This document shows positions 9,800 through 25,542 of a DNA stretch of 35,052 nt, piece after piece. Under the pieces are notes generated by a model. It saw only the letters and a program-made list of their open reading frames with translations. It ran no database searches and had not been told where the DNA came from. Source of the DNA: a virus; the IMG/VR virus record IMGVR_UViG_3300022918_000025, positions 1-35,052 of that record; one strand, given 5' to 3'. Positions within the stretch are counted from its first letter, which is position 1, and the number at the start of each line of letters is the position of its first letter. The position numbers and the translations under genes are program-made.

Positions 9800-9870
9800 A
9801 TGCAACACCTTATTATTGTTCATTCGCTCGCAGGTCTATCGATGCGGGCATACGGATTGGGAGGGCAGTT

Positions 9871-22943: not shown

Positions 22944-23402
22944 TCATAAGTGTGCCCATACTGCATGTCGTTTAATGCGACTTACCTGAACTTGTGCTAT
23001 TCCATAGCTTGACGCAATCTCCACTTGAGTACGAACATCTTTTCTTATGGATATAACATCTTCCGGCGATAGCTTGCTGCTTCCTTGCTTCACGCCTTTA
23101 GCTTGCCTGTTTTTGCTTGTCATGTCCTGCATGTTGTCCTTATGTGTTCCCAAAAACAAATGCTTTGGGTTGACGCATACAGGATTGTCGCATTCATGAC
23201 AAACACTCAAACCTAATGGAATTTCACCGTTATGAAGAATCCAGCTAACACGATGAGCACCAGTAGATTTGCCATTGTATTTAATGGTGCCTCTACCGGT
23301 TCCATCTATAGCCGAAGTCCACAGCCAGCAAGTATCGGTTTTATCAACCGAGTTAAAGAACCTAGTTTCAATTGGCTCTCTTGCATATTGACCTTTAGGC
23401 AT
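22944..23402 (-). CDS. HNH endonuclease in the capsid gene group (152 aa)
   Basis: HNH_3-type core: C-W-L-W near residue 20, G-R-G-T-I-K-Y-N-G, A-H-R-V-S-W (H49), L-S-V-C-H-E-C-D-N-P-x-C-V-N-P-K-H-L-F-L-G-T-H-K-D-N. A C-terminal helix-turn-helix-like part follows (L-S-P-E-D-V-I-S-I-R-K ... I-A-S-S-Y-G-I-A-Q-V-Q-V-S-R-I). It has no homology to the other HNH genes here beyond the motif. Likely a mobile endonuclease inserted between two structural genes. Confidence 0.9.
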   Translation of the reverse strand: MPKGQYAREPIETRFFNSVDKTDTCWLWTSAIDGTGRGTIKYNGKSTGAHRVSWILHNGEIPLGLSVCHECDNPVCVNPKHLFLGTHKDNMQDMTSKNRQAKGVKQGSSKLSPEDVISIRKDVRTQVEIASSYGIAQVQVSRIKRHAVWAHL

Positions 23403-23410
23403 AATTTAAA

Positions 23411-23827
23411 TCACCCCCACGCTTGCCATCTGCACACCTTCGAGGCAAGGATAGCGCCTAGTGTCGCGTTCTGGGATACAGCGAATTGACCAGGCAACGG
23501 GATAGTGCCAGAGTTAGCACTAGTCAATGGTGCTGCTGCGTTAGGTACGATGATGCCACGATTGCCGCCTGTGACTTCTAGAGTGCGTGTACCTGCTGCT
23601 GCGGTTTTTAGGCAAGAATCTTGCGCCATGCCGTTATTCCACTCAATCATTACTCGGTCAGTGTCGTTAGACCACATTACTTTCAATGGAGTGAACCCCA
23701 CTGTAATTAATACATAGTCAGTTGCGGTAATGGCAGTAGCATCGAATGTTACTGAGCCAGTGCCATACTTAACGATACCATCGGGAAATGGCTGGGCGAT
23801 TGTTTGTCCTGCGGTATTAATAGCCAT
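23411..23827 (-). CDS. Structural protein downstream of capsid, possible decoration or head fibre (138 aa)
   Basis: ATG 23827 with AAGGA at nine bases is chosen; the frame opens 16 codons earlier, but that part overlaps the HNH gene. The protein begins M-A-I-N-T, like the major capsid protein (M-A-I-N-T-I-A-G). It is Ala/Thr/Gly-rich and beta-type. Without the HNH insertion it would directly follow the capsid gene. Confidence 0.65.
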   Translation of the reverse strand: MAINTAGQTIAQPFPDGIVKYGTGSVTFDATAITATDYVLITVGFTPLKVMWSNDTDRVMIEWNNGMAQDSCLKTAAAGTRTLEVTGGNRGIIVPNAAAPLTSANSGTIPLPGQFAVSQNATLGAILASKVCRWQAWG

Positions 23828-23840
23828 AAATAATGTTCCT

Positions 23841-24458
23841 TCATAAGTTATCCAGTTTTCGCTGGAGTGTTGCAATTTGTTTTCTCAGGAATTCCGCTTC
23901 TTTGTGGTGCAGTTTCATGTGTTCGCTCTGCGTCATGCACTCAAGATTGCTAATATCATTGTCTAGTTTGTTTTCGTTTTTGTGATGAACAATGATAACT
24001 GGGTCTAAATACAACTTACCGTCAACATATATGAGATATATAGAATCTGGCTTGTTTTCTCTTAACCATTCTTCCATCACTAACCGATGTTCAAATACGT
24101 AATTGTTTGCGGTCTTAAATGGATGATCGCCTACATTCACGTATTTATAGCCATCAGAGTGGATTGTTTCTCCACCCTTCCATGCTGGATTATCCTCACC
24201 GAACAATCCTCGCACTCGGTAAATACCGTGGCATTTCCTAGAGCAATACTTCCTTCTCGAGACATGGCTTGCATACTCTTTGAATTCTTTGCCGCAACCT
24301 AAACAATGCAAGGTTATGGTATTTTTTCCTTGAGTTCGCATCCATGCCGCTTTGCACTTGTATGAGCATGCTATTGCTGTCTTAGCTCTACAAGCTGGAA
24401 CTTTAAAAATTACACTACAAGTAACGCACTTCTTAACTTCACCTTTGAAAGTAGCCAT
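23841..24458 (-). CDS. HNH homing endonuclease with zinc ribbons (205 aa)
   Basis: Two N-terminal zinc-binding modules (C-V-T-C ... C-S-Y-K-C and C-L-G-C ... C-S-R-K-C-H), then an HNH core: E-H-R-L-V-M-E, V-I-I-V-H-H-K-N-E-N-K-L-D-N-D-I-S-N-L-E and H-M-K-L-H-H. It lies between the major capsid gene and the next structural gene. A GGAGG stands close to the ATG but inside a hairpin (24459-24486), with an extended -10 promoter just upstream, so its translation looks deliberately restricted. Confidence 0.93.
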   Translation of the reverse strand: MATFKGEVKKCVTCSVIFKVPACRAKTAIACSYKCKAAWMRTQGKNTITLHCLGCGKEFKEYASHVSRRKYCSRKCHGIYRVRGLFGEDNPAWKGGETIHSDGYKYVNVGDHPFKTANNYVFEHRLVMEEWLRENKPDSIYLIYVDGKLYLDPVIIVHHKNENKLDNDISNLECMTQSEHMKLHHKEAEFLRKQIATLQRKLDNL

Positions 24459-24493
24459 ATATCCTCCGAATTAAATCAGAGGATATTATACCA
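24459..24493 (-). promoter_or_regulatory. Internal extended -10 promoter overlapping a Shine-Dalgarno-sequestering hairpin
   Basis: Minus strand: TGG-TATAAT (24485-24493) is a perfect extended -10; the -35 is poor. Overlapping it, ATATCCTC (24479-24486) pairs perfectly with GAGGATAT (24459-24466) over a 12-nt loop. The second arm contains the GGAGG of the HNH gene and ends next to its ATG. Transcription from this promoter would start near 24478, after the first arm, giving an mRNA that cannot form the hairpin. Confidence 0.7.
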
Positions 24494-24519
24494 CTAACCA
24501 GATATAGTTAATCCTAAGT

Positions 24520-25542
24520 CTATGATAAAGCTATCAAATTGGTATGTTCAATTCTAATCAACCAGTTATTGTTAAGAATCTGTGTTGTAGTGATTGCTTT
24601 CCAGCCACTAGTAGCACGTTGATTCAATGGGTCAGCAGCACCAGCAGAGCCGATAGGCTTGATGATGTTCTGTAATGCCTGTCCAGCTAGAGGAACTACA
24701 CCGTAAGCATTGGCAGCGACGATCAGTGTTGCGTATACGTCGTTGTTAGTACCGCCAGTGGTGATCATGCCGTCTGTACCGATAGCAGCGCCTGCATTGA
24801 TGAATACCTTGGCATTTGTTGAACGGAAGAAACGGATGTTACGGTATGAACCGCACTCGTCATCTTCTGCCTTCATAGCATCAGAGTATTCAGTTACAGG
24901 AAGGTAGCCTGGGATGGATTCCAGTTGCGCTTCTGTATCTGGATGGATAAGACCGATATAGCTTGAACGGATGGCTTGTGTGCCTACGTTCTTATCGGCT
25001 GGCAGAATGTTACGCAGGTATTTGCCATTCTGGCGGCCAAGGAAACGAATCGCAGTACGCAAAGCAACACTTGAGATTACAGTGTTCAATGTGTTACGAG
25101 CCGAACCGTTAGTGTAGATGACGTTGGTACCAGCTACCAGTACATCACGGCGAATCTGGTCGATAGTAGTACCAGCTTGCTCACCCAATACCATGCCTGC
25201 TTCAGTCAATACTGGGTCTTGGTTGGTCAAATCCACCATGTCCGAGATATTTACATAGTCACCGTATTGAGCGAGTGTCGCTGTAACGTCTGTGGTTGTG
25301 ATAGAAGAGCCGGAAGGTGTTACGCCTTCAACTAAAGGTTGTGTTGCAGGTGTCAGAGACTCCCAACGGCGGAACTTGATCTGATTGCCTGAACGTGTTG
25401 CGATTGGACGTACCTGGCCGAAACGTCCGTGGATATCGGCAGGGACTGCACGATCCAGCAGATTACGGTCATAGTACACTTGCAGGGCGGGTTGAATCAC
25501 CCCTGGGGTGCCAGCAACGCCAGCGATTGTATTAATAGCCAT
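24520..25542 (-). CDS. Major capsid protein, N4-gp56 family (340 aa)
   Basis: Starts M-A-I-N-T-I-A-G-V-A-G-T-P. Then Y-Y-D-R-N-L-L-D-R-A-V-P, G-N-Q-I-K-F-R-R-W-E-S-L-T, L-A-Q-Y-G-D-Y-V-N-I-S-D and L-I-H-P-D-T-E follow the N4-gp56 family of HK97-fold capsid proteins. AGGAG precedes the ATG. It follows the scaffold gene, as usual. P22's own coat protein (430 aa) is of another type, so head and tail genes have different relatives. Confidence 0.92.
   Translation of the reverse strand: MAINTIAGVAGTPGVIQPALQVYYDRNLLDRAVPADIHGRFGQVRPIATRSGNQIKFRRWESLTPATQPLVEGVTPSGSSITTTDVTATLAQYGDYVNISDMVDLTNQDPVLTEAGMVLGEQAGTTIDQIRRDVLVAGTNVIYTNGSARNTLNTVISSVALRTAIRFLGRQNGKYLRNILPADKNVGTQAIRSSYIGLIHPDTEAQLESIPGYLPVTEYSDAMKAEDDECGSYRNIRFFRSTNAKVFINAGAAIGTDGMITTGGTNNDVYATLIVAANAYGVVPLAGQALQNIIKPIGSAGAADPLNQRATSGWKAITTTQILNNNWLIRIEHTNLIALS

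Follow-up and report, generated by a model that had tools for sequence, protein, structure and literature searches.

A putative sigma70-type promoter inside a ribosome-site-hiding hairpin in the leader of a phage HNH endonuclease gene

In the phage DNA analyzed here (the window, a whole IMG/VR record of 35,052 bases), the gene of an HNH endonuclease, HNH1, is preceded by a hairpin that covers its ribosome site, and a perfect extended -10 promoter element overlaps the upstream arm of that hairpin. This combination was confirmed and exceeds what chance produces. We consider it reasonably likely that the leader works as an RNA switch, in which a promoter of the HNH1 cassette starts transcription inside the hairpin that hides the Shine-Dalgarno (SD) sequence.

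The record encodes a terminase, a portal protein, a major capsid protein, a P22-Cro-like protein and an ERF-family protein. HNH1 is located between the capsid gene and a gene without an assigned function, termed gene B, and a second HNH cassette, HNH2, follows between gene B and gene C.

24520..25542, minus strand: major capsid protein gene (PHROG 1357, 1.6e-63), upstream of HNH1 on the same strand
23828..24519, minus strand: mobile cassette of leader and HNH1, 692 bp from the capsid stop codon to the gene B ATG
23841..24458, minus strand: HNH1, intact gene of a 205-aa HNH_3 endonuclease (Pfam HNH_3, 1.5e-9)
23411..23827, minus strand: gene B, 138 aa, no assigned function, downstream neighbor of HNH1
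22944-23402, minus strand: HNH2, second HNH cassette, just downstream of gene B

The capsid gene is the proposed source of read-through RNA that would enter HNH1, and a terminator scan found no terminator-like site between the two genes. The hairpin itself was considered as a terminator and rejected, as it has no U-tract and was not called as one. An Rfam search of the window gave zero matches. A host-type promoter is found elsewhere in the phage, beside the P22-Cro-like gene (TTGACA-16-TATAAA, 1904-1931). HNH2 lacks an SD-hiding leader of the HNH1 type, as judged by leader inspection in the window. At the HNH2 site, the relatives L019 and L020 contain ∼50 bp with a terminator-like CCCGCTTCGGCGGGTTCTT stem, which is missing from the window there.

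HNH1 matches PHROG 1271/20891 (1.4e-18) and the structure of I-HmuI (PDB 1u3e; E 7.7e-5). Its N-terminus carries two CxxC zinc-ribbon-like motifs, and the alignment retains H158, H159, N167 and H180/H184, so that the HNH domain and its catalytic residues are present. The predicted structure has a mean pLDDT of 84.5 and a pTM of 0.51, and its best Foldseek match is I-HmuI, at an E value of only 0.09. HNH1 would be expected to cut DNA. Its closest relative (35% identity over the full length; L001:3112-3990) shares its reading frame with a C-terminal portion that resembles dUTPase; in crAssphage, an HNH gene is likewise found at the dUTPase. No leader common to HNH1 relatives was seen, the best of them being this protein of 35% identity. 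In L036 (3950-4620) and L038 (1390-2100), an HNH gene lies between tRNA halves together with group I intron-like sequence. The tRNA, probably tRNA-Arg UCU, is split in the anticodon loop, and Rfam and ARAGORN do not recognize the split tRNA and intron-like sequence.

The leader of HNH1 reads ...TGGTATAATATCCTCTGATTTAATTCGGAGGATATATGG... on the minus strand and is composed of the following elements.

24496..24511, minus strand: TTAACTATATCTGGTT, weak candidate operator or duplication, 14/16 match to the capsid 3' end (24575-24560)
24485..24493, minus strand: extended -10 TGGTATAAT, sigma70-type; hexamer 24490-24485, predicted RNA start 24479-24477
24476..24486, minus strand: 5' stem arm ATATCCTCTGA, overlapping the last two -10 bases and the discriminator
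24470..24475, minus strand: hairpin loop TTTAAT
24459..24469, minus strand: 3' stem arm TCGGAGGATAT, containing the SD GGAGG (24467-24463) and adjoining the ATG

An earlier note on this DNA had described a perfect 8-bp inverted repeat, and the two arms, ATATCCTC (24486-24479) and GAGGATAT (24466-24459), are exactly where it placed them, as is the HNH1 ATG at 24458. In the RNA, the stem is longer and comprises 11 bp (24486-24476 with 24469-24459), including one U-G pair, around a 6-nt loop. The note had also located the GGAGG within the second arm; the motif does lie within the 11-bp stem, but its first base falls just beyond the 8-bp arm. The 34-nt hairpin has a folding energy of -15.9 kcal/mol and ranks third in stability for its size on the minus strand. 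Folding of the 101-nt region yields a z of -4.57, and none of 200 shuffles is equally stable. When the leader is shuffled with its dinucleotides preserved, 0 of 3,000 shuffles hide the SD and AUG equally (17.8 kcal/mol), and two reach 15. Of 33 further leaders that were examined in the window, none buries its SD comparably.

The perfect extended -10 claimed to overlap the first arm is present as TGGTATAAT at 24493-24485, and TGNTATAAT occurs only once in the 35-kb window, both strands included. A good -35 is absent (by eye, the best is TTAACT, 4/6, at a spacing of 15), and the predicted promoter therefore rests on the extended -10. Transcription from a sigma70-type promoter is expected to start ∼7 nt past the -10, which corresponds to 24478. 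A T4-type late promoter (TATAAATA) is absent at HNH1, and the element is of the sigma70 type.

The long and short transcripts were folded separately, and the predictions bear out the claim that the long RNA hides the ribosome site and the short RNA frees it. In the long RNA, the SD has a p_unpaired of 0.000 and a predicted opening cost of ∼18 kcal/mol. For RNAs starting at 24700, 24560 or 24520, opening of the SD and AUG is predicted to cost 18-21 kcal/mol. The predicted cost is 14.3 kcal/mol for a start at 24484, 6.2 kcal/mol at 24480 and 2.9 kcal/mol at both 24478 and 24477. Because the cost collapses between 24484 and 24478, the predicted RNA start coincides with the point at which the switch flips, and a shift of the promoter by a few bases is predicted to abolish the switch. 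The capsid stop codon lies 33 nt from the stem, which is probably too distant for a terminating ribosome to unfold it. The sequence, the stem, its energetics and the insertion of the cassette were established computationally.

In the proposed mechanism, a free-standing HNH cassette between the capsid gene and gene B would bring its own sigma70-type extended -10 promoter. Read-through RNA of the capsid operon would contain both arms, bury the SD and leave the endonuclease untranslated. RNA initiated at the internal promoter (24479-24477) would lack the 5' arm, expose the SD and permit translation. The yield of endonuclease would thus be decoupled from the abundant late capsid transcript. If the promoter is active, a host-type RNA polymerase could use it from the onset of infection, which would generate an early-on, late-off program. 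This order, the reverse of that of I-TevI, is probable because a host-type internal element is combined here with a late structural gene upstream.

In six relatives with capsid proteins 80-89% identical, the site is empty, and the distance from the capsid stop codon to gene B is 13-26 bp versus 692 bp in the window. Such presence/absence polymorphism at a fixed site fits a free-standing homing endonuclease. Because the six HNH-less relatives are also devoid of the leader, the predicted promoter, the hairpin and HNH1 arrived jointly as a mobile cassette. The same comparison bears on the origin of the stem. Hairpins are generally common 3' of capsid genes, and the stem could be a chance hairpin, or a processing or terminator structure of the capsid mRNA, that was co-opted by the HNH gene; however, the structure is missing after the capsid gene in 6/6 HNH-less relatives, and we regard this origin as very improbable. 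The searches turned up no cassette-bearing relative for a comparison of covariation in the arms. The exact leader pattern gave zero matches in IMG/VR, and no DNA match was found in phage records. The 14/16 repeat between the leader and the capsid gene is marginal (p about 0.01-0.06), and the capsid ends of the HNH-less relatives do not match it.

The inverted repeat can also be read at the DNA level. The dyad over the -10 and RNA start could be bound by a repressor dimer, for example a Cro-like protein of the phage, a regulator of the host or the endonuclease, and the RNA hairpin would then be a by-product of the palindrome. A DNA operator is a serious rival, as the window contains no better 28-bp dyad than this site, which has 12/14 symmetric pairs and partial symmetry through the loop. 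Moreover, its location from the -10 to the start codon is classical for repression, and a P22-Cro-like protein is encoded in the window. Nevertheless, no second site with up to three mismatches exists in the window, including the Cro region. The single arm mismatch (T/G) breaks the DNA symmetry but preserves an RNA U-G pair, and the second arm holds the SD and stops exactly at the start codon, like the T4 cases. We judge the operator unlikely at HNH1. A wider pattern scan returned 29 stretches, none of them directly before an HNH gene. Among these, only the stretches in L086 and L091 combine a comparable stem with a correctly placed start codon; they precede a ribbon-helix-helix regulator gene that is followed by an HNH gene. 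There, TGGTATAATATCCTCC with a perfect 32-bp palindrome shares the TGGTATAATATCCTC core, nearly the same as in the window leader, and this likeness also favors the operator. The palindrome overlaps TGGTATAAT and the SD (L091, minus strand near 9811-9844; L086, 536-569). For L086/L091, it is simpler to regard the palindrome as a DNA operator, despite the same RNA energetics.

To place the RNA switch proposed for HNH1 among other leaders, the same opening-cost calculation was run on 1,219 leaders with an SD. T4 I-TevI, I-TevII, e and 49, published cases of hairpin and late-promoter control (PMC3014915, PMC2988022), were all recovered as positive controls with their late promoters. The window leader ranks 12th of the 1,219. 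This rank also bears on the possibility that the element is only a promoter, serving the cassette or the downstream structural genes, and that the stem plays no part in regulation. In favor of this possibility, the extended -10 is perfect, and T4 endonuclease cassettes frequently bring promoters for their neighbors (PMC2988022). However, a stem of this strength in register with the SD, ATG and -10 is rare, both among the shuffles (0/3,000) and among the leaders, and a promoter with an idle stem seems improbable.

A strict test for a sigma70-type start in the hairpin, applied to 1,133 non-T4 leaders, was passed by 1/107 HNH leaders (the window) versus 1/1026 others. With one HNH leader and one non-HNH leader passing, the arrangement is not a general HNH feature. 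A looser threshold chosen post hoc gave 5/107 HNH leaders versus 4/1026 others (p 0.0006, with the window counted), and a small second set contained no promoter-in-hairpin leader (0/25 HNH, 0/39 other); because of the post hoc threshold and the empty second set, HNH enrichment is not established. The strict pattern is found in 5/83 other T4 genes versus 2/1133 non-T4 leaders. The T4 early genes nrdC.8, regB, denV, alc and 30.8 (L097:28885-, 37740- and 40355-; L098:11278- and 5253-) have a sigma70-type start inside an SD-hiding hairpin, and the sigma70 version thus exists in T4 outside endonucleases.

Two further HNH genes, CB7_50 (L100:40327, minus strand) and one at L189:3989 (plus strand), have leaders with a hidden SD that would be partly exposed in RNA from a sigma70-like promoter. 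These leaders are weaker, at ∼8 kcal/mol to open. Together with the window, they are candidates for a broader and rather doubtful proposition, that a host-sigma version of the T4 switch, early-on and late-off, has evolved several times over in free-standing HNH cassettes of unrelated phages, wherever these cassettes landed.

The earlier note had named T4 I-TevI as the precedent. The geometry does match, but I-TevI is one of several precedents, and the timing is probably opposite, as a sigma70-type promoter should act early. The same arrangement is found in I-TevII, I-TevIII, segB and mobE, the last of which is a free-standing HNH gene (PMC2988022). In the known T4 cases, a T4 late promoter serves as the internal promoter, so that the endonuclease is silent early in infection and made late (PMC2988022). 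I-TevI, I-TevII and I-TevIII share with HNH1 a -10-type element in the 5' arm, an SD in the 3' arm and an ATG at the stem base. They differ in being intron-encoded and in their late promoter and early-off/late-on order; I-TevI and I-TevII are GIY-YIG enzymes, and I-TevI has proven autorepression, a further difference from the window system. The 14/16 repeat, of marginal significance, recalls the I-TevI operator, which is homing-site-like and lies over the promoter. Aeh1 mobE, in the ribonucleotide reductase region, and T4 segB are likewise free-standing endonuclease genes, with a hairpin over the ribosome site and a promoter RNA that lacks the 5' arm, according to the published descriptions (PMC2988022, PMC3014915). 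Unlike HNH1, they use a T4-type late promoter that needs phage factors and reside in T4-like myoviruses beside other host genes. T4 e and 49 (late) and the five early genes also place a promoter start within an SD-hiding hairpin, but none of them is a mobile endonuclease, and the five early genes, unlike the window, have the 5' arm between the -35 and -10. I-HmuI, whose HNH domain is related to HNH1, is itself intron-encoded in a Bacillus phage.

No sequence relation was found between the window switch and the T4 I-TevI system. Judged from sequence, evolution independent of T4 is plausible, with an HNH rather than a GIY-YIG enzyme and a sigma70-type rather than a T4 late promoter. Going by the sequence, the HNH1 leader would work like the mobE/I-TevI control, but it is a variant rather than a strict member of that group, because it lacks the late promoter. 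The layout of a hairpin with an internal promoter is already known; what is new is the sigma70-type extended -10, the unrelated phage and the capsid-operon site. If the switch operates as proposed, ribosome-site hiding of the T4 type has arisen anew, this time around a host-type promoter of the ordinary kind, and this would account for the presence of a cutter in the phage's most transcribed operon without overproduction. A switch in which the promoter start flips translation would also be a portable genetic device.
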